A stretch of DNA of 49,512 nt from Acidimicrobiales bacterium (GTDB lineage: Bacteria > Actinomycetota > Acidimicrobiia > Acidimicrobiales > VFJN01). The stretch's first letter is position 1, and each line of letters starts with the position of its first letter. The position numbers and the translations under genes were made by a program. The stretch is taken from the NCBI GenBank assembly GCA_035316325.1, contig DATHJB010000012.1, positions 1 through 49,512 on the forward strand, read 5' to 3'. Shown here piece after piece: positions 13,277 to 33,561 of this stretch. The notes under the pieces were generated by a model. It saw nothing but the letters and a program-made list of their open reading frames with translations. It searched no databases and was not told where the DNA came from.

Positions 13277-14221
13277 TCATCCGCTCGGTCCGCACGACCG
13301 GGCGAACGTGGCCAGGCGGTCCCACAGCTCGGTGCGTCGACCCGCGAGGTTGTGGAGGTGGCCCGACCCCGCCAGCTCGAAGCGGGTCGTCGGCGCGGAC
13401 GCGTAGCGGTTGGCCGCTCCGTCGATGTCGGTGCAGATGTCGTGCTCGCCGAAGGCCAGCAGCACCGGGACGTCGATGGCGGCCTTGTCGGCGTCGGTCG
13501 CACCCGGCACCATCGCGGTGAGGCCGCAGGTGGGGAGCAGCGGTGCCCGTTGGGCGGCGAAGGAGGCCCGGGCCGCGGCCGGCACATCCGGGGCGAAGAA
13601 GGCGCCGTGGGTGAGCGCGCGGCGCTCGACCCTCGAGCCGGGAGCGAAGCGCTGCCGGGCCAGGGCGACCAGCTCGGCGTCCGGTCGGCCGGCGGCGCCG
13701 CGCTCGGCGTCGGTCAGCACCTCGGGCACGCCGGCGCCGCTGGCCCCGAGCACGGCGATCCCGTCGAACGACCGGTGCCGGGCCTGCTGCACGTCCACGA
13801 GCATCCCGCCCATGGAGTGCCCCACCCCCACGACGAGGGACCCCGGGTCGAGCCGCCGGCGCAGGTCGGCCACCGCCGCAGCGTGCGCCGCCGCCACGAC
13901 GCCGGGGGTCAACTGGAAGAGGTCGTCGACCGGCGTCGACCGCCCGAGGCCGGGGTGGTCGAGGGCGACGACCACGAGGCCCTTGCCGGCGAGGTGCCGC
14001 GCCATGCTGTAGCCGTCGAGGCCGGCGGGCGGTTCCAGGTCGAAGTACCCCGTGGTGCAGCCCCCGCCGGCGAGGCAGTACAGCAGCGTGAGAGGCCCCG
14101 TGCCGTCGACCTCCCGCGGCACCCAGGCCCGGCCGCCGAGGCGATGGCGCCCCGGGAACGGCAGCTCCGACGACACGTCGACCTCGACGGGCGACACGGC
14201 GACGGTGTCACGGCGCGGCAT
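13277..14221 (-). CDS. Alpha/beta hydrolase
   Basis: 314 aa. Nucleophile elbow GHSMGG with Ser136, likely acid Asp261 in FGEHD and His288 in GSGHLHN complete the triad. No signal peptide, so cytoplasmic. It could be a thioesterase, esterase or C-C hydrolase. It is the last gene of the long minus-strand operon that begins with the binding protein at 24573. Its ATG (14219-14221) lies inside the thiolase-fold gene (14-bp overlap). The N-terminal region has an extra Cys-rich stretch (LLYCLAGGGCTTGYF) near the oxyanion loop. Confidence 0.82.
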   Translation of the reverse strand: MPRRDTVAVSPVEVDVSSELPFPGRHRLGGRAWVPREVDGTGPLTLLYCLAGGGCTTGYFDLEPPAGLDGYSMARHLAGKGLVVVALDHPGLGRSTPVDDLFQLTPGVVAAAHAAAVADLRRRLDPGSLVVGVGHSMGGMLVDVQQARHRSFDGIAVLGASGAGVPEVLTDAERGAAGRPDAELVALARQRFAPGSRVERRALTHGAFFAPDVPAAARASFAAQRAPLLPTCGLTAMVPGATDADKAAIDVPVLLAFGEHDICTDIDGAANRYASAPTTRFELAGSGHLHNLAGRRTELWDRLATFARSCGPSG

Positions 14222-15368
14222 CGGGATGCTGCAGGACCACGCCCGTCCGGCTGGCGGTCACCAGGGCGGTCCAGGCGTCGGGCACCTGGTTGACCGCGGT
14301 CCCCCGGAGCTGACGGACGGCTTCGAGCGTCAGGTTCAGGCCGTGGATGTACCCCTCGCCGATGAGCCCGCCGTTGGTGTTGCAGGGCAGCGAACCCTCG
14401 GGGCCGAGGTGGCCGTCGGCGACGAAGTCCTTCGCCTCGCCGAAGCCGCAGAAGCCCAGTGCCTCGAGCTGCATCAGCAGGATCGGCGAGAAGGCGTCGT
14501 AGACCAGGGCGACGTCGACGTCGTCGCGGGCGATGCCGGTGGCGTCGAAGAGCCGTTTGGCCAGGGCCACGGAGCCGTCCATCACCGCCAGGTCGGGGCG
14601 GTAGTGGTTGCTCCCGATCTCCTCCTCGAAGAGACCCGCCCCGGCCGCCGCGGCGATGGCGACCGGGGCGGGCGTGTCGCCGGCCCGGTCGGCGCGGGTG
14701 ATCACCAGGGCCGCGGCGCCGTCGGTCTCCTGGCAGCAGTCGAACAGCCGGATCGCGGGCTCGGCGATCCAGCGGGAGGCCTGGTGGTCCTCCAGCGTGA
14801 TGGGCCGGCCGTAGAAGTGGGCCGCCGGGTTGGTGGCCGCGTACGCCCGGAGCTGCACGACCGCCCGCCCGAAGTCCTCGTTGGTGGCCCCCGAGGCGTG
14901 CATGTACCGCACGGCGTTGAGCGACATCCACGACGCCGGCGTGATGACCCCGAACGGGTTGGACCACTGCATCGCCGTCGACCCCGAATGGGCGGAGGTC
15001 GGGCGCCCGCTGAGCTGGGCGGCGCCGAAGCGCGAGCCGGAGCGGGCCTTGATGGCCCGGTAGGCGACGACCACGTCGGCGGCCCCGACCGCCAGCGCCG
15101 CGGCGGCGTGCAGGAGGACGCCCTGCGACCCCCCGCCGCCGTACGGGACCCGGCTGGACCAGCCGATCTCCCGGGCGCCCAGGGCCCGCACCAGCTCGGT
15201 CTCCTCGACCGGGTCGATCGTGTAGCTGACGATGCCGTCGACCTGCTCGGGCTTGAGGCCGGCGTCGGCGACCGCGGCGAGGATCGCCTCGCCGGCGAGC
15301 AGCGTCTCGCTCCGCCCGGCCGACTTCGAGTACTCGGTCTGGCCGATGCCCACGATCGCCGCGGTCAT
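14208..15368 (-). CDS. Thiolase-fold lipid-transfer-type protein (Ltp/SCPx-like), probable aldolase
   Basis: 386 aa thiolase fold. The position of the nucleophilic Cys of thiolases reads YGGGGSQG (76-83), with no Cys. The C-terminal half keeps CNTNGG (329-334), YIHG with His342 and VYDAF with Tyr290. This resembles the Ltp proteins of actinobacterial sterol side-chain degradation, which cleave beta-hydroxyacyl-CoA by retro-aldol chemistry and need a DUF35 partner. The gene encoding a DUF35 protein is directly upstream and overlaps it (ATGA at 15365-15368). Retro-aldol cleavage of a CoA ester is therefore my preferred role; the substrate is unknown. Confidence 0.85.
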   Translation of the reverse strand: MTAAIVGIGQTEYSKSAGRSETLLAGEAILAAVADAGLKPEQVDGIVSYTIDPVEETELVRALGAREIGWSSRVPYGGGGSQGVLLHAAAALAVGAADVVVAYRAIKARSGSRFGAAQLSGRPTSAHSGSTAMQWSNPFGVITPASWMSLNAVRYMHASGATNEDFGRAVVQLRAYAATNPAAHFYGRPITLEDHQASRWIAEPAIRLFDCCQETDGAAALVITRADRAGDTPAPVAIAAAAGAGLFEEEIGSNHYRPDLAVMDGSVALAKRLFDATGIARDDVDVALVYDAFSPILLMQLEALGFCGFGEAKDFVADGHLGPEGSLPCNTNGGLIGEGYIHGLNLTLEAVRQLRGTAVNQVPDAWTALVTASRTGVVLQHPDAAP

Positions 15369-15790
15369 CGGTCGTCCCCCACGGGCCGGAACACCGGGAC
15401 GGCCATGTCGTCGACGGTCGGAGCGAACACGACCTCCACCTCCATGCCGATGCGCACCTCCGACGGGTCGATCTCCACGAGGTTCGTCACGACGCGGAGG
15501 CCTTCGTCGAGGTCGACCAGCGCGGCGATCAAGGGATAGTCGAACGCCGGGTTCTGCGGGTGGTGCAGGATCGCGTAGCTGTACACGGTCCCCGTCCCCG
15601 CCAGGTCGAAGAGCTCGTGCTCCAGCGAGTGGCAGTACGGGCAGATGGGCCGGGGTGGGTGCCGGAAGCGCCGACACCCGCTGCAGCGCTGGGCGACGAG
15701 CCTCCCGTCGCTCACCGCCGTCCAGAAGGCCTCGCTGTCGTCGGTGACGACGGGTGCGGGCCGCGTCGCGCTCAGGCGGATCACGGTCAC
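15365..15790 (-). CDS. DUF35 / OB-fold zinc-ribbon protein, partner of the thiolase-fold protein
   Basis: 141 aa. The rubredoxin-like zinc ribbon has Cys36-x2-Cys39 and Cys50-x2-Cys53 (CSGCRR ... CPYCHS), followed by an OB-fold with GTGTVYSYAILHHP. Such proteins bind thiolase-like proteins and are required for Ltp aldolase activity (ChsH2 C-terminal domain is the best-studied case). Here the domain stands alone, without the fused MaoC domain of ChsH2. GTG start at 15788-15790 overlaps the CoA-transferase stop (GTGA), and the stop overlaps the thiolase-fold start, so a stoichiometric complex is likely. Confidence 0.88.
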   Translation of the reverse strand: MTVIRLSATRPAPVVTDDSEAFWTAVSDGRLVAQRCSGCRRFRHPPRPICPYCHSLEHELFDLAGTGTVYSYAILHHPQNPAFDYPLIAALVDLDEGLRVVTNLVEIDPSEVRIGMEVEVVFAPTVDDMAVPVFRPVGDDR

Positions 15791-18198
15791 GGCCGGTCCA
15801 CCGGGGCGTCGAGGACCACCCGATCGGCGGCCATGGCGTCGACCTCGGCATCGCTGTAGCCCAGCTCGCGGAGGATCTCGCGGGTGTGCTCGCCGCACAT
15901 GCTGGGCCCCCGCTGGACGACGCCGGGCGTCTCGCTGAAGTCGACCAGCAGGCCGGGGTCCTCGAAGCGTCCGACGCTCCCGGCCCACGTCGTCGAGGTC
16001 AGGCCCGACGCCCGGGCCTCCTCGTCGTCGAAGAGGCGGCGGCAGAACAGCTCGTCGACGATCTCGACCGGGACGACGGGGTCGAGGTCGGCGAACCAGT
16101 CGGCGGCCGGTCGGCTCGCGAAGCGTTCCTCCAACCGCGCCGCCGCCTTCTCGTCGTCGACGTCGGCATCGCCGTCGACCAGCCGGCGACGGCTCTCGGG
16201 GTCGAGGGCGGCGACGAAGATCCACCGGTCGTCGGCGCACCGGTACATCCGGTAGAAGGGCGAGAGCCCGTACTGGTCACCGTCGACGTGGCCCCACGGG
16301 GCCGGCGTGCCGTCGGCGTGGATCCAGGCGTACGACGTGTGGAGCAGTCCGGCGTTGACGATCGACGTGCTCACCGACTGGCCCTCGCCGGTCCGGTCGC
16401 GGTGGTAGAGCGCGGCGATGATGGCGACGGCGGCGAGCAGGGCGTTGCCGGTGTCGCCCATGTTGGACCGGCTCCACAGCGGAGGGTTGCCGGCGTCGCA
16501 GGCCCCGTCCTCCCACTCGGTGCCGGTCAGCGCCGCGGCGGTCTGGTCGGTGCCGGGCAGGGCCGAGCGCGGGCCCTTCTCGAAGCCGCGGGTGTTGCAG
16601 AAGATCAGGCGGGGGTGGCGCTCGCGCAGGGTGGCCTCGTCGAGCCCCAGCCGGGCGGCGGCACCGGGCCGCCAGTTGGTCATCACCACGTCGGCCCCGT
16701 CGACCAGCCGGTCGAGCACCGTCCGCCCCGCCGGGCTCTTGAGGTTCACGGCGACGCTGCGCTTGCCCCGGTTGGTGCCCAGGCCCATGTGGGTCCCCGC
16801 CCAGTAGGTGTCGTGCAGGGCGTTGACCTTCACCACGTCGGCGCCGAGGTCGGCCAGGACCCGGCCCGTGAACGGGCCGGCGACGCCGAGGCCGAGGTCG
16901 AGCACCCGGATGCCGGACAAGGGGTGCGTCAGCTCGCCGCCGCCGTCCGGCAGAGTCGTCGAGGGGTCGGGCGGCACCCGGGCCGCCTCGGCGAGCACCT
17001 CGTCGGTGTGCTGTCCGGGCCTCGGGGCGGGACCACGCACGGCGCCGGGGGTCGTCGAGAACTCCAGCAGGGTGCCGGCGTGGCGGATCGGGCCCACGTC
17101 CGGGTCGTCGACCTCGACGACGCAGCCGTCGGCGAGGAACGACTCGTCGGCCAGCGCCTCGGCCGGCGAGCGCACCAGCGCCACGCCCATCCCCGCGGCC
17201 TCGCCGGCGCGCACCCAGTCGTCGGAGGGGAACTTCTTGAACGCCTCGGCCAGGAGGGGGTGGAGGTACATCCCGGTGAGCATCCCGTCCGGCTCCATCG
17301 ACACACGGTCCGGGTCGTCACGGTAGGCGCCGTCGAGTGCGGCGGCCGCCAGGTCGTCGCCCTCGGCCGAAGAGAGCACCCAGTTGGGGCGGACCGTCCA
17401 GTGGTGGACCCAGCGCCCGTCGGCGCACTCGTACAGCCCCTCGATCGATCGCCCGTCGGTCGGCCACATCCAGTAGAGGGGCGCATCCGGGTTCTCGACC
17501 CGCTGCCAGTTCAGGCACACGGCCGCCAGCGCACCCTGCAGCAGCGACGTCTCCACGTGCTGCCCCCGGCCGGTGACCTCACGCGCCCGCAGGGCGGCGG
17601 CGATGCCGACGGCCGCGAAGTAGGTGGCGCCGATGCTGGGCCACGGCGACCGGGGGAACACCGGGCTGGGCCGGTCGGCCCCGCGCACCAGGCCTTCGGG
17701 AACGTCCTGCTCGGGGTGGGGCGCCGCCCGCCCACCGATGAGGTCGAACGCGGTGCCGTGGCGGCCCTTGTGGTCGTAGAGAAGTCCGGTGCGGGCCGCC
17801 ACGAGGGCATCGATGCCCGGCCGGTCGCGATGCGCCGGGTGGTCGCCGTAGCCGGAGATCGAGCAGGTGATCAGCCGAGGGTTGGCGTCCGACAGCGTCT
17901 GGTGGTCGACGCCGAGGTACGCCGCGGTGCCGGGAGCGAAGCTCTCGACCACGACGTCGGCCTCCGACGCCAGCGCCCAGAAGGCGGCGAGACCGTCGGC
18001 CGAGGCGAGGTCGAGCCGGGCGCTGCGCTTGCCCCGGTTCCACACCCGGTAGCCGGCCTGCCCGGCGAAGGGATCGCCGCCCGGACGCTCGATGCGGGTG
18101 ACCAGCGCACCGTTGTCGGCGAGCAGCATCGTGGTCATCGGGCCTGCGGTCCCCCAGGACAGGTCGAGTACCCGCAGCCCATCGAAGACTCCTGTCAC
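15787..18198 (-). CDS. Tandem (two-domain) CaiB/BaiF family CoA-transferase
   Basis: 803 aa, about twice a normal class III CoA-transferase. The N-terminal half (1-405) begins GLRVLDLSWGTAGPMTTMLLADNG (quoted to 20: GLRVLDLSWGTAGPMTTMLL). The C-terminal half (427-803) begins GIRVLDLGLGVAGPFTGRVL. Each half has a candidate catalytic Asp: Asp130 in PGIDALVAARTG and Asp551 in PGTDQTAAALTG. Class III enzymes normally work as interlaced dimers, so the fusion may be a covalent dimer or a heterodimer with two specificities. It would move CoA between an acyl donor and the incoming acid. Start GTG 18196-18198 overlaps the transporter stop. Confidence 0.9.
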   Translation of the reverse strand: MTGVFDGLRVLDLSWGTAGPMTTMLLADNGALVTRIERPGGDPFAGQAGYRVWNRGKRSARLDLASADGLAAFWALASEADVVVESFAPGTAAYLGVDHQTLSDANPRLITCSISGYGDHPAHRDRPGIDALVAARTGLLYDHKGRHGTAFDLIGGRAAPHPEQDVPEGLVRGADRPSPVFPRSPWPSIGATYFAAVGIAAALRAREVTGRGQHVETSLLQGALAAVCLNWQRVENPDAPLYWMWPTDGRSIEGLYECADGRWVHHWTVRPNWVLSSAEGDDLAAAALDGAYRDDPDRVSMEPDGMLTGMYLHPLLAEAFKKFPSDDWVRAGEAAGMGVALVRSPAEALADESFLADGCVVEVDDPDVGPIRHAGTLLEFSTTPGAVRGPAPRPGQHTDEVLAEAARVPPDPSTTLPDGGGELTHPLSGIRVLDLGLGVAGPFTGRVLADLGADVVKVNALHDTYWAGTHMGLGTNRGKRSVAVNLKSPAGRTVLDRLVDGADVVMTNWRPGAAARLGLDEATLRERHPRLIFCNTRGFEKGPRSALPGTDQTAAALTGTEWEDGACDAGNPPLWSRSNMGDTGNALLAAVAIIAALYHRDRTGEGQSVSTSIVNAGLLHTSYAWIHADGTPAPWGHVDGDQYGLSPFYRMYRCADDRWIFVAALDPESRRRLVDGDADVDDEKAAARLEERFASRPAADWFADLDPVVPVEIVDELFCRRLFDDEEARASGLTSTTWAGSVGRFEDPGLLVDFSETPGVVQRGPSMCGEHTREILRELGYSDAEVDAMAADRVVLDAPVDRP

Positions 18199-21095
18199 GC
18201 ACGCGCTCCTTCGGTCGTCTCGGTCGTCGCACCGCCCTGGCCGCTGCGAGCGATCGCCCGCTCGTCGGTGCCGAGGTAGCTGGCGATCACCGCGGGGTCG
18301 GACCGCACCTCGGAGGGGGTCCCGGCGGCGATGACCCGGCCGGCCTCCATGCAGTACACCCGGTCGCTGATCCGCATGATCAGGGGCATGTCGTGCTCGA
18401 TGACGACGAGCGCGGCATCGAGGTCGTGCTGCACCTGGCGGATCAGCGGCGCGAACGCCTCGGTCTCGCGCTGCGCCATGCCGGCGGTCGGCTCGTCGAG
18501 CAGCAGCACCTTGGCGTCGGTGGCGATGAGGCAGGCGAGCTCGGCGACCCGGCGCGTGCCGGTCGACAGGTCGGCGGCGAAGTGGTCCGCGTACGGCCCC
18601 AGCCCGAGGAAGGTCAGGATCTCGTCGGCCTCGGTGCGCTTGCGCCGCTCCGACGACGGCGACGGCGGGAGCGCCAGCATCGACGGCACGAGCAGCGAGT
18701 GCTGCCGGGCCTCGAGCGCGACCAGGACGGTCTCGCGCACGGTGAGTCCGCCGAAGAGGCGGGCGTCCTGGAAGCCGCGCCCGAGGCCGGCGGCGTGCCG
18801 GCGGTGGGCCGACCGGTTGGTGACGTCGTGGTCGAGCAGGCGGATCGTGCCGCCGTGGGGCGTGAACCCCGAGATGGCGTTCATCAGCGTCGACTTGCCG
18901 GCGCCGTTCGTGCCGATGAGGCCGACGACCTCGCCCCGGTGGACCTCGATCGACGCGTCGGCGACGGCCCGCACGCCGCCGAAGGTGACCGTCACGTCCC
19001 GGGCCTCCAGCCACGGTCGGTCCCCCTCCGGGAGGGCCACCAGTCGCTCGCGGGTCGTCAGGTGCGGGGTCGCCGCCGGCTCGGCCACCTCGCGGGGGAC
19101 GCGGCGGCCGAGCCAGCTGACGACGAAGTCGCGGACGTTGTAGATGACCTGCACGAGGCCGCCCGGGAAGTACAGGAGCAGCAGCAGCAGACCGACGTTG
19201 GCGGAGAGGAGGCGCACGGTGTCGTTGGCACCGAACGCCGCCGGCAGCCCGACGACCCAGAGCGCGCCGAGGATGCCCCCGGCGACCGTCCCGATCCCAC
19301 CGATGATGGCGATGGCGACGAGCTGGAGCGACGCCTCCGGCGAGAACGGGCTCTCCGAGCCCGAGGCCAGGAAGCCGGGGAGCAGGTAGGAGTACAGGGC
19401 GCCGGCCAGCGCGGCGATGCCACCGGAGACGGCGAAGGCGCTCAGCTTGGTGCGCGTCGGCGACACCGTGGCGGCCGACGTCATGGGCTCGTTGTCGCGC
19501 ACCGCGATCATCGTCCGGCCGGCCCCGGTCCGGCGCAGCCGGCTGACCAGGAGGACGACGCCGACCAGGAAGACCAGGCACAGGTAGTAGTAGTTCGACG
19601 GCTCGCCGAAGTCGACGCCGCCGAGCACCGGCCGGTCGCGGGTCACCGACGGCACCGACGGACGGCCGCCGCTCCAGAACTCGCGGGCGAACATCCAGTT
19701 CGAGGCCATGTTGGCGAAGGCGAGCGTGGTGACGGCGAGGAACAGGCCCTTCACCCGCAACGCCGGCAGGCCCACGAGCACGGCGAAGCCGATGCCGACG
19801 GCCGTGGCGGCGACGAGCGCGGCCAGCCAGGGGAGCTCGATCGTCACCTCCGTCAGCTGGCCGACCCAGGGCGCGCCGATCCCCAGCGTGTGCCCCTGGG
19901 TGAAGGCGATCATCGACAGGCCGCCGACCCCCGCGAACGCGAACTGCCCGAGCGAGAGCTGGCCGGCCCAACCGGTGAGCAGCGAGAGCGACACCGCCAC
20001 CATCGCCACGATCAGCAGCTCGGTCCAGATCAGGAGCTCCGACGACTTGGTCACCACCTGCGGCACCACCAGCGCGGGCACCAGGAAGAGCAGCATGCCG
20101 ATCCCGGGAAGCCGCCCGATCCACCGGTTCCGCTGCAGGCGGTCCGGGATGGGGGCGCGCCGGGCGCCGACGGTGAACCCGGTCTCCTGCCGGGTCCCGG
20201 CCCGGGCCAGCAGGAGGACGAGGACGAGGACGCCGACGAACAGGAACGCGTTGAACACGCCGATGTTCCGGTTCAGGTTCACCGAGACGATCGACTCGGT
20301 CATGCCCAGTGCCAGCCCGCCGAGGATCACGATCGGGATCGAGCGCATCCGCGCCGCCATCGCCACGATCAGCGCCCGGAGCAGCAGGCCGATGGTCGAG
20401 ACGCCGGCCAGGTCGTCCGCGGTGCGGGTGACGACGGGGGCGAGGGCGATCTGGGTGTAGGCGGCGAAGCCGGCCGCCAGCCCCCAGACCAGCGTCGACA
20501 CCCGCTTCGGGCTGACACCGACGAGCCGGGCGTTCTCGGGGCTGTCGGCGACCGCACGGATGTGGAGGCCGAGGCGCGTCCGGCTCAGGAAGAACCCGAG
20601 CGCGACCACGACGGGCACGATCAGCAGGATCAGCGAGCTCTGGCGCGGGCCGATGGTCAGACCGTCGCTGACCTGGATCTCCGCCCACGTCGCGTCGAAC
20701 GCGACGGGGATCACGCCGCCCTGGACGTCGGGCAGGGCCTCGACGATGAGGACGGTGACGAGCTGCGCGACGCCGACGGTGGCGATGAGGAGCACGACGC
20801 GCGGGGCGTCGAACAGCCGCCGGACGACCAGCAGCTCGGTGAGCACCCCGATCGCCACGGCGCCGGCGACGCCGAGCGCCATGGCCAGCGGGTACGGCAG
20901 GTCGTAGTTCTGGAACAGCACCACGAACGAGGCGACGCCGAACGCGCCGATGGCGGCCTGGGCGAAGTTGACGATGCCCGAGGACCGGTAGATCAACACG
21001 ATGCCGGCGGCGATGACCGAGTAGCCGAGGCCGATCGCCAGGCCGTTGAACGCCACCTGTGCCGAGAACGACCAATCGAGGAGGGCGAGGATCAC
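18195..21095 (-). CDS. Fused LivH-LivM-LivG branched-chain-amino-acid-type ABC transporter protein
   Basis: 966 aa. Residues 1-300 are a LivH permease (FNGLAIGLGYSVIAAGIVLI), about 335-660 a LivM permease (LSLLTGWAGQLSLGQFAFAG) and about 693-950 a LivG ATPase. The ATPase has Walker A GTNGAGKST (728-736), a signature that reads LSTGTRR in place of LSGGQ, and Walker B VLLLDEP. Both membrane subunits and one nucleotide-binding domain are thus one chain; the second ATPase is on the neighbouring MFS-LivF fusion. It is placed before the CoA-transferase gene, so imported acid could be activated at once. GTG 21093-21095 overlaps the upstream stop. Confidence 0.92.
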   Translation of the reverse strand: MILALLDWSFSAQVAFNGLAIGLGYSVIAAGIVLIYRSSGIVNFAQAAIGAFGVASFVVLFQNYDLPYPLAMALGVAGAVAIGVLTELLVVRRLFDAPRVVLLIATVGVAQLVTVLIVEALPDVQGGVIPVAFDATWAEIQVSDGLTIGPRQSSLILLIVPVVVALGFFLSRTRLGLHIRAVADSPENARLVGVSPKRVSTLVWGLAAGFAAYTQIALAPVVTRTADDLAGVSTIGLLLRALIVAMAARMRSIPIVILGGLALGMTESIVSVNLNRNIGVFNAFLFVGVLVLVLLLARAGTRQETGFTVGARRAPIPDRLQRNRWIGRLPGIGMLLFLVPALVVPQVVTKSSELLIWTELLIVAMVAVSLSLLTGWAGQLSLGQFAFAGVGGLSMIAFTQGHTLGIGAPWVGQLTEVTIELPWLAALVAATAVGIGFAVLVGLPALRVKGLFLAVTTLAFANMASNWMFAREFWSGGRPSVPSVTRDRPVLGGVDFGEPSNYYYLCLVFLVGVVLLVSRLRRTGAGRTMIAVRDNEPMTSAATVSPTRTKLSAFAVSGGIAALAGALYSYLLPGFLASGSESPFSPEASLQLVAIAIIGGIGTVAGGILGALWVVGLPAAFGANDTVRLLSANVGLLLLLLYFPGGLVQVIYNVRDFVVSWLGRRVPREVAEPAATPHLTTRERLVALPEGDRPWLEARDVTVTFGGVRAVADASIEVHRGEVVGLIGTNGAGKSTLMNAISGFTPHGGTIRLLDHDVTNRSAHRRHAAGLGRGFQDARLFGGLTVRETVLVALEARQHSLLVPSMLALPPSPSSERRKRTEADEILTFLGLGPYADHFAADLSTGTRRVAELACLIATDAKVLLLDEPTAGMAQRETEAFAPLIRQVQHDLDAALVVIEHDMPLIMRISDRVYCMEAGRVIAAGTPSEVRSDPAVIASYLGTDERAIARSGQGGATTETTEGARA

Positions 21096-23212
21096 AGGGT
21101 CACTCCCCCGTTGACGGCGGCGCCGGCGAACACGGTGTCGACCAGGTCAGGGCGGCGGAGCAGCTCGTCGGCGGCCCCTTCGAACACGACGCGACCCTTC
21201 TCGAGGTAGACGGCGCGGTCGCACACCGACAGGGCGATGTTCATCGACTGCTCCACCAGGACCATCGTCTGGCCCCGCTCGCGCAGCCGCTCGACCACCT
21301 CGATGAGCGACTGGACCACGATCGGTGCCAGGCCGAGCGACAGCTCGTCGATCAGCAGCACGTCGGGCTCGTGGACCAGCGCGCGGGCGAGGGCGAGCTG
21401 CTGGCGCTGACCCCCGGACAGGTCGCCGGCGACCGCGCCGAGGCGCTCGTCGAGGAACGGGAAGACCTCGACGGCTCCGTCGATGCGCCGTTGGCGCTCC
21501 TGCCGGCCGAGGTCGAGGGTGGTCAACGACAGCTCGAGGTTCTCGCGCACCGACAGTCCCGGGAAGATCCCCTCGCCGCCGCGGACGGCGACGACGCCGC
21601 GGGCGAAGCGGTACTCGGCCGTGGTGTAGGTGATCGTCCGACCGTGCAGGCGCACCACACCCCGGTCGGGCAGCATCAGCCCCAGCATCGCCCGCAGCAG
21701 CGTCGACTTGCCGGCCCCGTTCGTCCCGAGGACGGCCAGGCTCTCGCCCTGGCGCACCTCGAGGTCGCAGCCGAAGAGGACCTGCACCGGCCCGTAGGAG
21801 ACGTCGAGGTTGCGGACCTGCATCACCGGTACGTCGGAGGTCGCCGCGACGCGCTGGCGCTCGGCGTGCTCCTCCCGCATCTCCTCGGCGACGAGGGCGA
21901 TGTCGGCCGTCAGGAACCGCGATCCGTACACGATGAACGCCGCGCCGACGAGCGCGGCCGGGGGCACGACGAGGGTGAGCGCCGAGCGCTCGCCGATGGC
22001 GTCGCTCAAGGACCCGGCGAGGAGGTTCCCGAGGAAACCGCCCAGCAGGAAGATGTAGAGGCCCACGAGCGCGAACGCCTGGCTCCGCATGCGGGGCGGC
22101 ACCGCCGACGCGATCGCGGGCGACGTCAGCACGAACGCTCCCGCCTGGAGCGCGTTGGCCACGCTGTAGAGCAGCAGGAACCAGGCCGGCGCGTGCAGGC
22201 GCATGGCGACGGTGACGAAGATGCCGTAGCCGAGCAGCAGCAGGCCAGACAGGCGCAGCAACGACGGGGGGTTCTTGGTGAGGAGCCGGTCGCCGACCAC
22301 GCCGATCACCGGGATGGTGACGAGCGAGCCGCTCCACGCCAGCGCCAGCATCCAGCCCCGGGTGGAGGCGCCGTAGCCGTACTCGTCCTCGAGCACGAGC
22401 GACACCAGGTTCGGCACGCTGACGAGGGCGAAGCCGAGCACGCCGATGCCGACCGCCAGCAGGTAGAAGCTCCGGACCTTCCGGAGCCGCACGAAGGCGG
22501 CCGACAGCGAGACGGGCGGGTCGCCGGCGTCGGCATCCATGACCTCGCCGAGCACCTCCCGCTGCTCGTACTGGCCGCGCGGCGGATCGCGGAGGAAGAG
22601 GGCCCAGACGGCGAGCAGTCCGAGCGGCAGGGACAGCACCGCGAAGACCCAGCGCCAGGCCTCGGGCCCGCCGATCGCGGCGGCGACCCCACCGGCGAAG
22701 AGCGGGCCCATGAGCTGGCCGAGCGGCCGGCTGGCGCCCTCGACGGCGAAGACGCGCGCCCGGGCCCGCAGGGGGTACCCGTCGGCGAGCAGCGACGACG
22801 CGTTCGGCAGCCGGCTGCCGACGCCCATGCCGGTCCCCGTGAGGGCGATGCCCATGAGGAACGGGTTGGGGGCCAGGCCGGTGAACGTCGTGAACACGGC
22901 GACGGCCACGGTCCCGTAGCCCACGACCCGGGTGCGGCGCACGCGGTCGCCGAGCGCGGCGGCCGGCAGCGTCGTCAGCACCAGGGCCACACCGACCAGC
23001 CCGATCATGCCCAGCAACACGGTGTCGCTGATGTCGAACGTCGCCTGGATGTCGGGGGCCAGCACCACGGCGGCGGCCCGGGGGAACTCATCGAGGATCC
23101 CGATGAGCAGGAGCACGCCGAGCAGGCCGGCGCCGCCGCCGTCTTGGAGGGCAGCCCGCAGCGGCAGGCGGCCGGCGCTGCTCGACGGCGGCGGCGGCGG
23201 CTCGGTGGTCAC
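21092..23212 (-). CDS. MFS transporter fused to LivF-type ABC ATPase
   Basis: 706 aa. Residues about 28-435 form a 12-helix-like major facilitator domain (ALGDRVRRTRVVGYGTV is the loop between helices 2 and 3), and about 462-700 a LivF ATPase. The ATPase has Walker A GTNGAGKS (496-503), signature LSGGQ (598-602) and Walker B VLLIDE (618-623), followed by LSLGLAP, a LivF hallmark. No frame break is needed. It would supply the second ATPase of the LivHMG fusion encoded just downstream, while the MFS part could be an additional carrier or an anchor. I do not know whether the MFS part transports. GTG 23210-23212 overlaps the binding-protein stop (GTGA). Confidence 0.9.
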   Translation of the reverse strand: MTTEPPPPPSSSAGRLPLRAALQDGGGAGLLGVLLLIGILDEFPRAAAVVLAPDIQATFDISDTVLLGMIGLVGVALVLTTLPAAALGDRVRRTRVVGYGTVAVAVFTTFTGLAPNPFLMGIALTGTGMGVGSRLPNASSLLADGYPLRARARVFAVEGASRPLGQLMGPLFAGGVAAAIGGPEAWRWVFAVLSLPLGLLAVWALFLRDPPRGQYEQREVLGEVMDADAGDPPVSLSAAFVRLRKVRSFYLLAVGIGVLGFALVSVPNLVSLVLEDEYGYGASTRGWMLALAWSGSLVTIPVIGVVGDRLLTKNPPSLLRLSGLLLLGYGIFVTVAMRLHAPAWFLLLYSVANALQAGAFVLTSPAIASAVPPRMRSQAFALVGLYIFLLGGFLGNLLAGSLSDAIGERSALTLVVPPAALVGAAFIVYGSRFLTADIALVAEEMREEHAERQRVAATSDVPVMQVRNLDVSYGPVQVLFGCDLEVRQGESLAVLGTNGAGKSTLLRAMLGLMLPDRGVVRLHGRTITYTTAEYRFARGVVAVRGGEGIFPGLSVRENLELSLTTLDLGRQERQRRIDGAVEVFPFLDERLGAVAGDLSGGQRQQLALARALVHEPDVLLIDELSLGLAPIVVQSLIEVVERLRERGQTMVLVEQSMNIALSVCDRAVYLEKGRVVFEGAADELLRRPDLVDTVFAGAAVNGGVTL

Positions 23213-24573
23213 GGTTCGAGCTCGAACGTGTCCTCGTCGGTCGCCACCGTGTTGGTGGCGCCGTCGTAGATCTGCCTCGCGAAGACGGCGGGACCGGCGT
23301 GCTCGTCGGCCGACCAGTCGATCTCGCCCAGCACCGGCGGGACCCGGTAGGCCGGGAGCTCCTGGAGGGCGGCGACGAAGCGGTCACGGGTCAGGTCGCC
23401 GCCGGCCAGCGACAGGGCCGCCGCCAGCACGTCGACCTGCACGCACGTCGCGGTGATCTGGTTGTAGTCGAACGTCGCGGGCTCGATCTCGTCGCCGGTC
23501 CGGCGGGTCCAGATCTCGTGGCAGGACGCCGCGATGGGGTCGTCCGCGCCCAGCTCGGTGGCGCCGAGCGTGAAGGTCACGAACTCCTGCCCGTCGGCGA
23601 TCTCGCGGGTGCCGAAGCGGTCGGCGAACACCTCGTTCGACGAGTTGGCCGAGATCGGCGCCGAGATGAACCGGGGCGAGAGGCCCTGGGCGTCGAGCTC
23701 GGTCTCGATCCCCGTGTGGTTGGTGTTCTGCACGAACATCAACACCGTGTCGACCTCTTGGCTGGCGAAGTCGGTCGCCGCGGAGGTCAGCACCGTGTTG
23801 CCCTCGGGGTCGCTGGGGCCGGCGTAGTCGGTCCGGTAGGCGGTGTAGTCGACACCGGCCTCGTCGAGCATCGGCAGCACGGTCTCCTCGACGGCGTCGC
23901 CCTGGTTGGGGAAGACGCTGCCGTACCAGACGCCGACCTTGCCCTCCAGGGCGCCGTCGTCGAGAGCGTGCTGGACCGTCGCCGCGTACTGCTCCTCGAG
24001 CACGGGGAACCGCGTGAACAGCAGGCCCTCCGAGTCCTCCAGGTCGGCCTCGGTCACGTCGGCGCCCGTGTAGGCCGGCACCCCGGCATCGGTGAGGCAG
24101 AGGACCTCGTCGTAGGTGGCCGTGTTCACGACGAGGTTGGACCGGTCCTCGGTGGCCTCGACGCAGGCCTGGCCGCCCTGGGCCTGCAGGACGTCGTAGA
24201 CGACCCGCTGGACGTCGACCGTGCGGCCGCAGACGCCGCCGTTCTCGTTCAGCTCGTCGGCGAAGACCTCGTAGGTCTCGGTGGGGTCGACCCCGGCGAC
24301 GGTGAATCCGATCTCGGCGAGCGCAGTGAAGTCGATGCTCAACGTGGCCACGTTCACCGAGTCGGCGCTGACGCCGTCGTCGTCGCTGGCCACGTTGTCG
24401 CCGGAGCACTCGACCGGTTGCAGTCGCCCGACGTCGTCGACGGTGACCTCTCCGGTGAAGTCGGCGTCTCCGCCGGCCGGAGCGTCGCTCCCCGAACCTT
24501 CGTCGTCGTCGCCACCACACGCTGCCATCAGCAGCGCGCCGCACGTGAGCGCCGCGAACAACCGTCTCCTCAT
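23209..24573 (-). CDS. Substrate-binding lipoprotein of the fused ABC transporter (type I periplasmic fold)
   Basis: 454 aa from the ATG at 24571-24573, with AGGGGGA 4 bases upstream. A lipoprotein signal peptide is clear: MRRRLFAALT then LLMAAC with Cys19 as the lipidated residue, then an acidic, Gly/Ser-rich linker. The rest is a Peripla_BP_6 (LivJ-like) ligand-binding fold (ADELNENGGVCGRTVDVQRV in part). It would capture the substrate outside the membrane. It is the first gene of the seven-gene operon ending at 13277, and the degenerate operator pair Op3 sits 33-73 bp upstream. The ligand is not predictable from the sequence alone. Confidence 0.9.
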   Translation of the reverse strand: MRRRLFAALTCGALLMAACGGDDDEGSGSDAPAGGDADFTGEVTVDDVGRLQPVECSGDNVASDDDGVSADSVNVATLSIDFTALAEIGFTVAGVDPTETYEVFADELNENGGVCGRTVDVQRVVYDVLQAQGGQACVEATEDRSNLVVNTATYDEVLCLTDAGVPAYTGADVTEADLEDSEGLLFTRFPVLEEQYAATVQHALDDGALEGKVGVWYGSVFPNQGDAVEETVLPMLDEAGVDYTAYRTDYAGPSDPEGNTVLTSAATDFASQEVDTVLMFVQNTNHTGIETELDAQGLSPRFISAPISANSSNEVFADRFGTREIADGQEFVTFTLGATELGADDPIAASCHEIWTRRTGDEIEPATFDYNQITATCVQVDVLAAALSLAGGDLTRDRFVAALQELPAYRVPPVLGEIDWSADEHAGPAVFARQIYDGATNTVATDEDTFELEP

Positions 24574-24653: not shown

Positions 24654-26399
24654 TCAGAGCAACTCTGAGGGGACCTCGACGAGCTGGGATCGCACCTGCT
24701 CGGCCAGGCTCTTGGCCTGCGGGTCGGGGCGCACGGACGAGGCGACGCCCTCGCCCAGCAGCCCGACGACCACGAAGTTGAGCGCCCGCAGGTTCGGGAG
24801 CGGGTGGCGCCGCACCTCCAGGTCGGCCGCCTCGGGCACGAGGTCCCGGAAGCGCTCCACGGTGAGCTCGGTGGCCAGCCAGCGGTAGGCGTCGTCGCTG
24901 CGGGCCCAGAGGCCGACGTTGGCGTTGCCGCCCTTGTCGCCCGACCGCCCACCGCACACCACGCCGAGCGGCACTTCCTCCGTGGCTCCCCCGGGCCGCC
25001 ACGGCGGCGGCAGCTCCGCAGCGGCGACCGGCGACCCGCCTACGGTCGTGGTGGTGGTGGTCGGCGCGGGTGGGATCCGCTCCCGGGCGCCGTCGGGCAG
25101 CACCACCGCGTGGTCGACAGCGGCTGCCGGCACCAGCGCCGGCCAGTACACGCCGTACTCGGCGGCGTCGGTGGGCGGCGTCGTGGCGTAGGCCCCGGCG
25201 TAGGAGGCCAGCAGCAGCTCCATGACCGCGTTCGAGAAACGGCGGCCGACCTTGTCGCGGTCGCGGTCCTTCACGGTGATCCGCAGGCTCGACCCGACCC
25301 GGCGGATGTCGGACGTCCCGTACTGATCCCAGCCGCCGAGCGCCTCACCCAGCTGGGCGACGGCCCGGGCGGCCTTGTCGTCCTGGTCGAGCCCGGCGAG
25401 CTCCAGGGTCATCGTGTTGCGCCAGCCGCCGACGTGGTTGAGCGCCACCTTCAGCCGGCCCGACGGCGCCTCGCCGCGCACGCCGTCGATCCGCACCCGG
25501 TCCGGCGTCCCCTGCACCAGGCGGATCGTGTCGAAGCGGGCGACGACGTCGGGGTTGGCGTAGGCCGGCTCGGCGATCTCGTACAGCAGCTGGGCGGTGA
25601 CGGTGCCGACCGTGACCGCGCCGCCGGTGCCGGGCTGCTTGGTGATCACGCTCGACCCGTCGGCCGCCACCTCGGCGACGGGGAACCCGGGCGAACGGTG
25701 ATCGGGCAGCTCCTCGGCGGCGAAGCAGTAGTTGCCGCCGGTGGCCTGCGGGCCGCACTCGATCACGTGGCCGGCCACGACGGCGCCGGCGAGGGCGTCG
25801 AGGTCGGTGGGCGACCAGCCGTGCCACCACGCCGCCGGGCCGACGACCAGCGCCGCGTCGGTCACCCGCGGCGTCACCACCACGTCGGCGTCGGCGGCGA
25901 GCCCGGCGGCGATGCCGAAGCCGCCCAGGTAGGCGTTGGCGGTCACCGGCGTGACGCCGGCGTCGGCCAGGTGCCGGCCGGTGTCGAGGTGGGCCAAGGC
26001 CTCGCCGGCGGCCTGCAGCTCGGCGAGGCGCGGCAGCAGGTCGTCGCCCTCGACCACCGCGATCCGCGGGGCGAGGCCGAGCCGACCCGACAGCTCGTGC
26101 AGCCGGCCGGCGAGCCCGTGGGGGTTGAGGCCGCCGGCGTTGGCCACCACGCGCACGCCCCGGTCGAGGCAGGTGCCGAGTGTCTGCTCCATCTGGCGGA
26201 GGAACGTGGTGGCGTACCCAGCCGTTGGGTCCTTCCGCCGCGCCTTCCACAGGATCAGCATCGTCAGCTCGGCGAGGTAGTCGCCGGTGAGGACGTCGAC
26301 GGGGTCCGGCCCCGCCAGCATCTCGGCCGCGACGGCCACGCGGTCGCCGTAGAAGCCCGAGACGTTGGCGATCCTGACCGGCGACCGCGCCGGCGTCAC
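24654..26399 (-). CDS. AtuA-family (DUF1446) acyclic terpene utilisation protein
   Basis: 581 aa. The N-terminal about 440 residues are the AtuA/DUF1446 domain (IANVSGFYGDRVAVAAEML, later GDYLAELTML and VVANAGGLNPHGLA). The C-terminal about 110 residues are the AtuA-like partner domain (CGGRSGDKGGNANVGLWAR). AtuA is required for citronellol/geraniol degradation in Pseudomonas, where it clusters with geranyl-CoA carboxylase genes; its biochemical role is still unclear. Here it ends an operon with biotin-dependent carboxylase subunits, the same association. GTG start 26397-26399 overlaps the previous stop. A Pro/Thr-rich linker (IPPAPTTTTTTVGG) joins the domains. Confidence 0.88.
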   Translation of the reverse strand: MTPARSPVRIANVSGFYGDRVAVAAEMLAGPDPVDVLTGDYLAELTMLILWKARRKDPTAGYATTFLRQMEQTLGTCLDRGVRVVANAGGLNPHGLAGRLHELSGRLGLAPRIAVVEGDDLLPRLAELQAAGEALAHLDTGRHLADAGVTPVTANAYLGGFGIAAGLAADADVVVTPRVTDAALVVGPAAWWHGWSPTDLDALAGAVVAGHVIECGPQATGGNYCFAAEELPDHRSPGFPVAEVAADGSSVITKQPGTGGAVTVGTVTAQLLYEIAEPAYANPDVVARFDTIRLVQGTPDRVRIDGVRGEAPSGRLKVALNHVGGWRNTMTLELAGLDQDDKAARAVAQLGEALGGWDQYGTSDIRRVGSSLRITVKDRDRDKVGRRFSNAVMELLLASYAGAYATTPPTDAAEYGVYWPALVPAAAVDHAVVLPDGARERIPPAPTTTTTTVGGSPVAAAELPPPWRPGGATEEVPLGVVCGGRSGDKGGNANVGLWARSDDAYRWLATELTVERFRDLVPEAADLEVRRHPLPNLRALNFVVVGLLGEGVASSVRPDPQAKSLAEQVRSQLVEVPSELL

Positions 26400-27169
26400 G
26401 AGAACTGCCCCGGCCGGCGGCCCTGGCCGGGCGGGCCGGCGAAGGCCTGGGCGATCGTGAGCCACGCGGAGGCGACGGGGCCCTCCGCGACGAGCGCCGT
26501 GTCGTCGGGGTGGCGGCGCTGGGTGACGACCAGGCAGAAGTCGAGCAGCGGGCCGCGCACCACGTCGGCCGCGCCCTCGGGCCCGAACTCGTAGCCGCCG
26601 ACCTCGACCCGCACGGGTGCCTCGGGGACCGGCCGTCCGTTGGCCCCGAAGGCGTGGGGCAGCGCCCGCCAGCCGAGGAAGGCGACGTGGCGCAGCCGGG
26701 CGGTCGGCGCCCGGGTGACGCCGAGCGCGTCGGCGACGTCCTGGCCGTGGGCCCAGGTCTCCATCACCCGCGCCGTGACCGACGACGCGACCGTCATGTC
26801 GGGGCCGTACCAGGGCACGCGCACCGACGGCCCGACGTCGAGGGCGACGGCGGCCAGGTGCTCGCCGACGGTCTCGAGCCAGGCGAGCGCCTCGGTCCCG
26901 CCCAGGTGGCGGGACGCGGCCGTGGCCCGGTCGACCAGGCCGTCGACGTCGGCGATCGCCTGGTCACGCTCCGCCCGGAAGGCGTCGGGGTCGACGATCG
27001 CCCGCGTGGCGGCCTCGTCGAACCAGGCCAGGTGGGTCACCTGGTCGAGCACCGACCAACCCGGCGCCGGCGTGGGCGTGCGCCAGCCGTCGTCGTCCAG
27101 CGACCCGACCAGGGTGACCAGGTCGGCCCGCTCCGCCAGGAGGTCGGCGCACAGCTCGTCGAGGTTCAC
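26396..27169 (-). CDS. TIGR03084-family protein (DinB/maleylpyruvate isomerase-like fold)
   Basis: 257 aa. The N-terminal part (DELCADLLAERADLVTLVGS, then PTPAPGWSVLDQVTHLAWFD) is the DinB/MDMPI four-helix fold, with candidate metal-binding His residues in QVTHLAWFD and ETWAHGQDVAD. The family occurs in actinobacteria, typically between acyl-CoA carboxylase and AtuA-like genes, which is exactly its place here. The function is unknown; mycothiol-dependent isomerase-like chemistry has been suggested for the wider superfamily. GTG 27167-27169 overlaps the carboxylase stop, and its stop overlaps the AtuA start. Confidence 0.85.
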   Translation of the reverse strand: MNLDELCADLLAERADLVTLVGSLDDDGWRTPTPAPGWSVLDQVTHLAWFDEAATRAIVDPDAFRAERDQAIADVDGLVDRATAASRHLGGTEALAWLETVGEHLAAVALDVGPSVRVPWYGPDMTVASSVTARVMETWAHGQDVADALGVTRAPTARLRHVAFLGWRALPHAFGANGRPVPEAPVRVEVGGYEFGPEGAADVVRGPLLDFCLVVTQRRHPDDTALVAEGPVASAWLTIAQAFAGPPGQGRRPGQFS

Positions 27170-29072
27170 TCGCCGCCCGCCTCGCCGACCACGACCAGCA
27201 CCTGGCCGCTCTCCACCTGGTCGCCTTCGCCGACCCGCACCTCGTCGACGGTGCCGTCGTGGGTGCTGTGGACGCCGTGCTCCATCTTCATCGCCTCCAG
27301 CACCACCAGCGCCTGGCCGGCGGTCACCCGGTCGCCGGGAGCCACCAGCACCCGCACGACCGCGCCCGGCAGGGGCGCGACCGTCGAGCCGGGCACCGTG
27401 GGCCGCTCGGGGGCCGGGAAGCGCTCGACCTCCTCCCACGTGCTGCCGGTCCCGCCACCGTCGACGTAGGCGGTGCGCCCCACCCGGTGCACGGCGTAGC
27501 GGCGGCGGACGCCCTCGACGGTGAGGTCGACGGCGGCCGTGTCGGCACGCCCCAGCTCGACGCCGACCAGCGGCGCGCCGTCGACCTCGATCTCGATGCC
27601 GCCCCGAGCGCACCGGTAGCCCACGTCGACCTGCTGCCCGCCGGTCGTGAAGGCGACCTGCTGGAGAGCCGTCGGCACGTTGCGCCACCCCGAGGGCAGC
27701 GTCGCCTGCACCGACGACGCGGCGCGCCGGACCGCGTGCCCGGCGAGGGCCGCGGCCACGGCGTGGAGCGGGTCCGGGGCCGCACGCCCGCTCAGCTCGG
27801 CGGGGTCGTGGCGGTCGAGGAAGCCGGTGTCGGTCTGCCCGGCGAGGAACTCGGGGTGGCGCAGCACCCCCACGAGGAGGTCGCGGTTGGTCGGCACGCC
27901 GTGCACCTGGGTCGACGCCAGGGCCTCGGCCAGCCGGTGGACCGCGTCGTCGCGGCGGTCGCCGACCGCGACGACCTTGGCGAGCATCGCGTCGTAGAAG
28001 GTCGACACCGACGACCCGGTCTCGTAGCCGCTGTCGACGCGCACGCCCTCGCCCGCGGGGATCGACAGCCGGGCGATGCGACCGCTCGCCGGCACGAAGC
28101 CCGCCGGCACGTCCTCGGCGTAGAGCCGCGCCTCCACGGCGTGGCCGCGGAGCACGGGCTCGACGTCCAGGCGCTCGCCCCGGGCCACCCGCAGCTGCAG
28201 CTCGACCAGGTCGAGCCCGGTGACCAGCTCGGTCACGGGGTGCTCCACCTGCAGTCGCGTGTTGACCTCCAGGAAGAAGAAGGCGCCCGTCGGGTCGAGC
28301 ACGAACTCGACCGTCCCCGCCCCGACGTAGTCGAGCGCCTTGCCGGCGGCGACCGCCGCGTCGCACAGGGCGGCCCGCAGCTCCGGGTCGACGGCGGGCG
28401 ACGGCGCCTCCTCGATCACCTTCTGGAACCGGCGCTGGATCGAGCACTCGCGCTCGAAGAGGTGCACGACGTTGCCGTGCCGGTCGCCGAAGATCTGCAC
28501 CTCGACGTGCCGCGGGCGCTCGACGTAGCGCTCGAGGAACACCGTCCCGTCGCCGAACGCGGCCGCGGCCTCCCGTTCGGCCGACGCCCGCGCCTCGGCC
28601 AGCTCGGAAGGGTCGCGCACGATGCGCATCCCCCGCCCGCCCCCGCCGAAGGCCGCTTTGACCAGCAGCGGGAACCCGTCGGACGGCAGCACCGGCACGC
28701 CGGCGTCGGCCATGAGCTGCTTGGCGGCGATCTTCGAGCCCATCGCCTCGATCGCCTCGGGCGACGGCCCCACGAACACCAGCCCGGCGTCCGCGCAGGC
28801 CCGGGCGAACGCCGCGTTCTCGGAGAGGAAGCCGTAGCCCGGGTGCACCGCGTCGGCTCCCGTGGCCGCCGCGGCGGCGAGGATCCGCTCGACGTCGAGG
28901 TAGGTCTCCTGGGCCGTGCTGCCGGGCAGTCGGACGGCCTCGTCGGCCTCGTGGGCGTGGGGCGCGTCGGTGTCGGGGTCCGAGTGGACGGCGACGGTGG
29001 CGATGCCCATGGCGCGGGCGGTGCGGAACACCCGCCGGGCGATCTCCCCGCGGTTGGCGACGAGGAGCTTCC

Positions 29073-29076
<4 letters not shown>
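27166..29076 (-). CDS. Acyl-CoA carboxylase alpha subunit (biotin carboxylase plus biotin carrier domain)
   Basis: 636 aa. The biotin carboxylase part (1-about 440) starts KLLVANRGEIARRVFRTAR and carries the ATP-grasp loop KAAFGGGGRGMR and EVNTRLQVEHPVTE. The biotin carrier domain at the C-terminus has EAMKMEH with biotinyl Lys597, 39 residues from the end as expected. It carboxylates its own biotin with ATP and bicarbonate. Its partner is the carboxyltransferase encoded immediately upstream (GTGA overlap at 29073-29076). Whether the acyl substrate is 3-methylcrotonyl-, geranyl- or another acyl-CoA is decided by the partner, not by this subunit. Confidence 0.95.
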
Positions 29077-30677
<1,601 letters not shown>

Positions 30678-31353: not shown

Positions 31354-33561
31354 ATGAACGGCAGCGACGGAGAGCCCCGCACGATCCCCGAGGCGCTGGC
31401 CCGCGCCGCGGCGCGGTGGCCCGATCAGGAGGCGGTCGTCGGCGACGATGGGCGCTGGACCTACGCCGACCTGCTGGCCCGCTCGCAGGAGGTGGGCCGG
31501 GCGCTGATGGCCAGTGGGGTCGAGCCGGGCGACCGGGTCGCGCTGTGGGCGCCGAACGGCCAGCTGTGGATCGCGGCGTCGTTCGGCGTGTACCTCGCCG
31601 GGGCCGTGCTGGTGCCGCTGAACAGCCGCTACAAGGGCACCGAGGCGTCCCACGTGCTGCGGACCTCGGAGGCCCGGCTGCTCGTCAGCGTGACCGACGT
31701 GGTGGGCCGTGACCCGCTCGCGGAGCTCGACGCGGTCGCCGGCGCCGACGGCCCCACGGTGGGCGGCGAGCGGGTCGTGCTCACGGGGCCGACCCCGCCG
31801 GGGGCCACCTCGTGGGCGGCGTTCCTGGCCCGCGGCGACGCCGTGTCCTCCGCCGAGCTGGCGGCGCGGTCGGCGGCGGTCGGCCCCGACGACCCCAGCG
31901 ACATCATCTTCACCTCCGGCACCACGGGCGCGGCGAAGGGCGTCGTCCTGGGCCACGGCGCCAGCGTCCGGACGTACCTGGTGTGGTCCGACAAGGTCGG
32001 TCTCCGCAGCGACGACCGGTACCTGATGGTGTACCCGTTCTCCCACACCGCCGGGTTGAAGTCGTGCGTGCTCGCCTCCGTGCTCACCGGCGCCACGATG
32101 GTGCCGCACCCGGTGTTCGATCCGACCGCCGTGATGCAGCGGGTGGTCGACGAGCACGTCACGATGCTCCCCGGGCCGCCGACGGTCTTCCAGGCCATCC
32201 TCGACGCCCCCGACCGGCCGGCGTTCGACCTGTCGTCGCTGCGGCTGTCGGTCACGGGGGCCGCGGTCGTGCCCGTGACGGTGGTCGAGCGGATGCGGTC
32301 GGAGCTGCGGTTCGAGAAGGTCGTGACCGGCTACGGGCTCACCGAGACCACCGGCACCGTCAGCATGTGCCACCACGACGACCCGCCCGACGTCGTGGCG
32401 CGCACCGTCGGCAAGCCCCTGCCGGGCGTCGAGGTCCGGGTGGTCGACCCCGACGGTGTGGTCCTCGACTCGGGCGAGCCCGGGGAGATCCAGGTACGGG
32501 GGTTCAACGTGATGCAGGGGTACTTCCGCGCCCCCGAGGCCACCGCGGCGGCGATCGACCCGGACGGCTGGCTGGCCACCGGCGACGTCGGCCTCCTCGA
32601 CGACCAGGGCAACATCCGCATCACCGACCGGCTGAAGGACATGTTCATCGTCGGCGGCTTCAACGCCTACCCCGCCGAGATCGAGGCCCAGCTCCTACGC
32701 CACCCCGACATCGCCCAGGCCGCCGTCGTCGGCATCCCCGACGACCGCCTCGGCGAGGTCGGAGCCGCCTTCGTCATCCCCACCCGGGGCCACGAGGTGC
32801 ACCCCGACGAGATCGTCGCCTGGTGCAGGGAGCACATGGCCAGCTTCAAGGTGCCCCGCCACGTCCACCCGGTCGACGCCTTCCCTCTCAACGCCTCCGG
32901 CAAGGTCGTGAAGACCGACCTCCGCACCCACCACCCGTTCGGTGGCCGGCAGCCGACCAGCCACGAACGGATGACGGGACGGCCCTGGGATGCGTCGTAC
33001 CACGACGGCCCGGCGCCCTGGGACGTCGGCCACCCGCAGCCGGCGGTTGTGCGCCTGGCATCCGCAGGCGGGTTCGCCGGAGCGGTGCTCGACGCGGGCT
33101 GCGGGACCGGCGAGAACGCTCTTCACGTCGCGTCGCTGGGATTGCCGGTTCTGGGCGTCGACGTGGCCGAGACGGCACTGGCGATCGCCCGGGAGAAGGC
33201 CGCCGACCGTGGGATCGAGGCCGAGTTCGCGGTGGCTGACGGGCTCCACCTGGAGCGCTTGGGGCGCAGGTTCGAGACGGTGTTGGACTGCGGGCTGTTC
33301 CACACCTTCGACGGCGACGAGCGACCGGGATACGTGGCGAGCCTGGCGTCGGTGACCGAGCACGGTGGAACCCTGTACGTGCTGTGCTTCAGCGACGACG
33401 GTCCCGACACCGGCCCGCACCCCGTCAGTCGGGACGAGCTGAGAGCGGCGTTCAACCCCGGCGATGGATGGCACGTCGCCGCCGTCGAACCGGACCGGCT
33501 GCAGACGAGGTTCCACGACGACGGCGCACCGGCCTGGTTCGCGACGATCGAACGGATCTAG
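31354..33561 (+). CDS. Acyl-CoA ligase fused in frame to a class I SAM-dependent methyltransferase
   Basis: 735 aa. Residues 1-about 530 are a FadD3-like ligase: FTSGTTGAAKG (186-196), YGLTETTG, GGFNAYPAEIE and catalytic Lys517 in NASGKVVK. From Met540 (MTGRPWDASY) the sequence is a complete small methyltransferase with SAM motif DAGCGTGEN (580-588), VLDCGLFHTFDGDER and a C-terminus reading DGAPAWFATIERI. Free-standing members of that methyltransferase family start exactly at such a Met. There is no stop or frameshift between the halves. The start ATG 31354 has GAGGGGG upstream, and Op4 is 19 bp before it. Either a true bifunctional enzyme or two genes joined by loss of the ligase stop. Confidence 0.88.
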   Translation: MNGSDGEPRTIPEALARAAARWPDQEAVVGDDGRWTYADLLARSQEVGRALMASGVEPGDRVALWAPNGQLWIAASFGVYLAGAVLVPLNSRYKGTEASHVLRTSEARLLVSVTDVVGRDPLAELDAVAGADGPTVGGERVVLTGPTPPGATSWAAFLARGDAVSSAELAARSAAVGPDDPSDIIFTSGTTGAAKGVVLGHGASVRTYLVWSDKVGLRSDDRYLMVYPFSHTAGLKSCVLASVLTGATMVPHPVFDPTAVMQRVVDEHVTMLPGPPTVFQAILDAPDRPAFDLSSLRLSVTGAAVVPVTVVERMRSELRFEKVVTGYGLTETTGTVSMCHHDDPPDVVARTVGKPLPGVEVRVVDPDGVVLDSGEPGEIQVRGFNVMQGYFRAPEATAAAIDPDGWLATGDVGLLDDQGNIRITDRLKDMFIVGGFNAYPAEIEAQLLRHPDIAQAAVVGIPDDRLGEVGAAFVIPTRGHEVHPDEIVAWCREHMASFKVPRHVHPVDAFPLNASGKVVKTDLRTHHPFGGRQPTSHERMTGRPWDASYHDGPAPWDVGHPQPAVVRLASAGGFAGAVLDAGCGTGENALHVASLGLPVLGVDVAETALAIAREKAADRGIEAEFAVADGLHLERLGRRFETVLDCGLFHTFDGDERPGYVASLASVTEHGGTLYVLCFSDDGPDTGPHPVSRDELRAAFNPGDGWHVAAVEPDRLQTRFHDDGAPAWFATIERI

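Follow-up and report, generated by a model that had tools for sequence, protein, structure and literature searches.

HAAT-type ABC importers (LivJ/LivK-LivHMGF and the urea importer UrtABCDE) share five parts with the locus described here, namely, a Peripla_BP_6 binding protein, two BPD_transp_2 permease domains and the ATPases LivG and LivF. Spinster carriers (HnSpns, SPNS1 and SPNS2) are secondary transporters of the MFS. In HnSpns, the intracellular master switch is Glu129, which is under the control of Asp41 and Arg122; the outer side is closed by the Asp60:Arg289 pair (PMC9440201). The proton network has been termed conserved across Spns (PMC13192786). Sensor kinase–MFS proteins (TC 2.A.1.34, named in PMC3924187) also hold an MFS domain and a functional partner in one chain; however, that partner is neither an ATP-binding cassette nor part of an ABC complex.

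In this study, a window of 49,512 nucleotides (the whole stretch of DNA that was analysed) from an Acidimicrobiales bacterium was investigated, in which an MFS domain and a LivF-type ATPase are encoded by a single gene. Both halves are of known kinds, and their joining is apparently undescribed in the literature searched. No description of an MFS–ABC or MFS–LivF fusion was found in that literature, which lay mostly outside subscription journals; the fusion may thus have been recorded before without being noticed, or listed in a catalogue only.

The MFS–LivF gene and its operon

The fusion gene, its domains and the neighbouring genes of the same run are as follows.

21092..23212, minus strand: MFS–LivF fusion gene, 706 aa, GTG start at 23212, stop codon ending at 21092
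21893..23153, minus strand: Spinster-like MFS domain (residues about 20-440), modelled by AF2 with 12 transmembrane helices
21826..21905, minus strand: inter-domain linker, residues about 436-462, modelled by AF2 as one helix continuous with TM12
21113..21823, minus strand: LivF-type ATP-binding cassette (residues about 464-700) with Walker A at 496-504, LSGGQ starting at 598 and Walker B at D622/E623
18195..21095, minus strand: LivH-LivM-LivG in one chain, 966 aa (two BPD_transp_2, ABC_tran and BCA_ABC_TP_C)
23209..24561, minus strand: substrate-binding protein (Peripla_BP_6), the gene preceding MFS–LivF
13277..18198, minus strand: downstream genes for an alpha/beta hydrolase, a thiolase-like protein, a ChsH2-type OB protein and tandem CoA-transferases III
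24654..30677, minus strand: upstream genes for AtuA (acyclic terpene utilisation), an MDMPI_N protein, a biotin carboxylase and a carboxyltransferase

The earlier note on this DNA had described an MFS domain followed in frame by a complete LivF ATPase in one chain at 21092-23212, and a next gene supplying LivH, LivM and LivG as a second chain. The coordinates are exact, and the gene lies on the minus strand, which that note had left unstated. Both Pfam MFS_1 (residues 35-395, E 2.8e-39) and ABC_tran (residues 482-623, E 3.5e-27) were matched in the fusion protein, its ATPase was classed as LivF/UrtE-type over residues 464-684, and the Pfam domains of 21095-18195 (minus strand) agree with a LivHMG chain. 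Walker A, LSGGQ and Walker B, which the note had called intact in the LivF part, are all intact by motif check. A stop or frameshift between the two domains would, according to that note, have refuted the fusion; the frame is open throughout the 706 aa with no internal stop, within a stop-to-stop frame of 763 aa. The fusion gene overlaps the gene on either side by 4 bases.

The operon contains two BPD_transp_2 permease domains, LivG- and LivF-type ATPases and a Peripla_BP_6 gene, as expected of a HAAT-type importer. It differs from described importers of this type in that an MFS domain is attached to the N-terminus of LivF, a single chain comprises LivH, LivM and LivG, and the LivF Q-loop reads GG, whereas most ordinary copies have EG. 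The signature of the LivG part reads LSTGT. A second, ordinary Liv operon was also observed in the window at 43937-49252, with LivF and LivG separate and LivH-LivM in one chain; upstream of it lies the gene of a 463-aa protein with no Pfam match. Elsewhere in the window (31354-33561), a 735-aa chain unites an AMP-binding acyl-CoA ligase and a methyltransferase domain.

Architecture, distribution and origin of the fusion

Fusion loci occurred in several gene arrangements. In type A, MFS–LivF lies beside LivH-LivM-LivG, as in the window, and most loci include a binding protein gene within the flanking sequence retrieved; in type B, LivH-LivM lies beside MFS-LivF-LivG, and most loci have no binding protein in the flanks. 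A third set comprises three genes, namely, MFS-LivF, LivH-LivM and LivG. At L157:7370-12556, a 1729-codon open frame reads LivH-LivM-MFS-LivF-LivG, so that the MFS lies within a complete importer chain, possibly because of an indel joining two genes.

Of 137 fusions, 129 have LivH or LivM within 4.5 kb on the same strand. A contig end truncates seven of the remaining eight loci, and the last one is L035, considered below. From this adjacency and the partner LivHMG chain, a single membrane complex containing MFS and ABC permease domains together, as the earlier note had proposed, is most likely. No unfused MFS gene was found in one operon with LivF, the loci L141, L143 and L145 being cut by or lying at contig ends. 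At L232, a stand-alone MFS gene and a one-chain LivH-LivM-LivF-LivG gene lie on opposite strands, about 2.9 kb apart.

In the window, the operon (AtuA, acyl-CoA carboxylase, CoA-transferases and thiolase) suggests a branched or terpenoid acid as the substrate. Among the 93 type A loci other than the window, AtuA and carboxylase genes were each present at one and a CoA-transferase at 10; the metabolic neighbours vary among loci, and therefore a common substrate does not emerge.

How widespread the fusion might be was a question that the earlier note could not answer, and genome sampling now does. Six sites in the source genome matched the query across both domains and represent six fusions, and many more were found in 41 relatives. 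In a sample of 296 Acidimicrobiia genomes, 96 matched the fusion profile at 1e-85, and about 80 hold the fusion, a count that omits genomes whose best match spans one domain only. In a sample of 396 Actinomycetota genomes, the fusion was present in 19, six of which lie outside Acidimicrobiia. One small class carried it in all three genomes, with four to seven copies each. The fusion is carried by 80 named loci, which set the window within or close to Acidimicrobiia and include one of Nocardioides marmoriginsengisoli. On the complete replicon of Embleya sp. NBC_00888 (5.73 Mb), the order of MFS-LivF, LivH-LivM-LivG and binding protein is as in the window; among the 5000 best plasmid records, none besides Embleya covers 80% of the query. 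The fusion is thus common in Acidimicrobiia and scattered in other Actinomycetota, its carriers being mostly uncultured. Five metagenome genomes labelled Bifidobacterium breve (L071, L072, L109, L110 and L128) have fusions arranged as in Acidimicrobiia, and these labels look wrong.

An artefact, in which two genes were joined by a frameshift, a misassembly or an over-called open frame, deserves mention since the window belongs to an assembly of 244 contigs. Against it stand more than 100 further loci from different assemblies, which also settles the question of whether the fusion was restricted to one assembly; they include the single-contig genomes G008 and G012 and the complete Embleya replicon. 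A few fusion matches have a stop within the aligned stretch, and the great majority of these further loci have none. This recurrence therefore excludes chance, frameshift and misassembly, and the artefact can be rejected with near certainty.

Nearly all of 139 fused LivF domains have intact ATPase motifs (Walker A, LSGGQ/E and Walker B including the Glu). The source genome also encodes one-chain LivH-LivM-LivF-LivG importers without an MFS domain (L007-L010, on contigs C235, C6, C35 and C40). Their LivF domains fall inside a supported clade of fused LivF (99*) and share its Q-loop variant. In this Q-loop (window residues about 541-550), GG occurs in fused and one-chain LivF, and EG in most ordinary LivF of the same genomes; the GG variant, as aligned, tracks the LivF clade and not the MFS domain.

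With HnSpns taken as the root, the MFS tree separates the type A and type B fusions from HnSpns and the stand-alone carriers by a branch supported at 99*. The possibility that types A and B each gained the fusion fully independently was considered and set aside, given that the HnSpns-rooted tree favours a single origin. A few stand-alone copies are nested among type B, and these, together with the one-chain LivFs devoid of MFS, mean that later losses or splits must be allowed. A single old joining followed by losses or splits would be the simplest reading of types A and B. L035:9366-11579 (contig C60 of the source genome) has a longer linker, intact Spinster proton residues and an MFS domain that groups with the stand-alone carriers; LivH/M was not found nearby. 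It looks like a second, independent MFS–LivF fusion because its MFS falls on the other side of the 99* branch.

Spinster affinity and the proton-switch residues

The profile of the fused MFS domains, searched against solved structures, matched HnSpns first (6e8j, 7.6e-38) and then human SPNS1 (2.8e-31). In the AF2 model of the window protein (pLDDT 87.5, pTM 0.82), the ATPase follows twelve long helices, the last of which, TM12, extends unbroken over residues 408-457. By VIA-align, human Spns1 with lysophosphatidylcholine was the closest to the MFS part among the structures compared (Z 41.0, 410 residues, 3.0 A), followed by Spns2 (Z 40.6) and, at slightly lower scores, by other MFS proteins; the LivF part matched 1ji0 (Z 33.7). 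The best rows of Foldseek covered the ATPase only, and the MFS matches came from VIA-align. The window protein thus has a 12-helix MFS fold closest to Spns structures, and its MFS part is Spinster-derived, with HnSpns the nearest by sequence and human Spns1 by fold. The C-terminus of a twelve-helix MFS protein is cytoplasmic, where LivF must be, and the topology therefore fits.

Apart from the nearest profile and fold, the fused MFS domains share REPxRG after TM6 and motif A with Spinster proteins. They differ in being joined to an ATPase, in the replacement of Glu129, in a mostly acidic residue at the Arg289 position, and in the loss of Asp41/Arg122 in several clades. The Glu129 position was acidic in none of the 81 MFS domains of named loci and in three of 68 in the tree set. 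The window copy carries D41P, R122L, E129V and R289D, so that the Asp41-Arg122-Glu129 network is absent (Pro, Leu and Val), as is the Asp60:Arg289 salt bridge (Asp/Asp); Arg was found at the 289 position in 0/81 loci. Asp41 and Arg122 were mostly retained or lost together (Asp/Arg 49, Pro/Asn 13 and Gln/Thr 10 among the 81 domains), and in type B both were kept in 27 of 30. Motif A, Asp142 and Arg376 are conserved in the fused domains. Judged by the aligned residues, the proton network is altered in most fused copies and gone from the window copy. In stand-alone Actinomycetota relatives, Asp41 and Arg122 are present in every readable case, and position 129 is often Gln, which indicates that the Glu129 change is partly older than the fusion. 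With Asp41/Arg122 retained in many copies and Gln129 in stand-alone relatives, proton coupling by another route is conceivable.

Possible roles of the MFS domain

The reading that we favour, with a probability of about 0.5, is that the locus encodes a HAAT-type ABC importer whose LivF bears the Spinster-derived MFS as an auxiliary membrane part, no longer proton-driven in the manner of HnSpns. MFS–LivF would be the LivF subunit, with the MFS domain on its N-terminus; it would assemble one to one with the LivHMG chain and with the binding protein, thereby placing the MFS domain beside LivH/LivM in the membrane. TM12, prolonged as a stiff helix in the model, would tie the MFS domain to LivF. Although the sequences differ widely, 133 of 138 fusions place Walker A 55-58 residues after the end of the MFS domain; this near-constant spacing and the unbroken helix favour a fixed geometry over a loose tether. 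The MFS domain may be an auxiliary that the ATPase cycle drives or gates, or it may offer an amphipathic substrate or product a passive route. Either role is likelier than that of a free proton-coupled carrier because the HnSpns-type master switch is missing, and the window copy is without the TM1 Asp/TM4 Arg pair too. In this reading, the MFS domain may move substrate, and the ATPase cycle may move the MFS domain. A specific form, in which the LivF cycle drives the Spinster-like MFS through alternating access via the stiff TM12-LivF helix, is unlikely as it stands; if true, a secondary-carrier fold has joined a primary active transporter.

The MFS domain could instead be a normal secondary transporter, exporting a by-product or taking up the importer's own compound, with the fusion securing only co-expression and co-location with the importer. 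The retention of motif A and Asp142, the Asp41/Arg122 pair of type B and the existence of stand-alone relatives of the fused MFS, including the one near the one-chain importer gene at L232, are consistent with such a tethered carrier. However, the non-acidic E129 position in nearly all copies, the loss of D41/R122/E129 from the window copy and a rigid linker of near-constant length argue against it, and we consider it a minority possibility. If the MFS domain did not transport at all, it might act as a sensor, regulator or membrane anchor, sensing a substrate or lipid and modulating the LivF ATPase. The coupling residues have been lost in several clades, and the MFS domain diverges faster than LivF (window versus relatives, 25-48% for the MFS alone and 33-52% for both), both of which favour this reading; yet the fold, motif A, Asp142 and Arg376 are still conserved, which makes a non-transporting domain improbable.

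MFS carriers and ABC pumps are treated as distinct mechanistic classes, and the fusion joins both in one conserved natural chain. Having altered proton switches, it lends itself readily to the question of whether an MFS protein can be powered or gated by ATP hydrolysis. For freshwater and marine Acidimicrobiia, the label 'MFS transporter' or 'ABC ATP-binding protein' covers half of such proteins.
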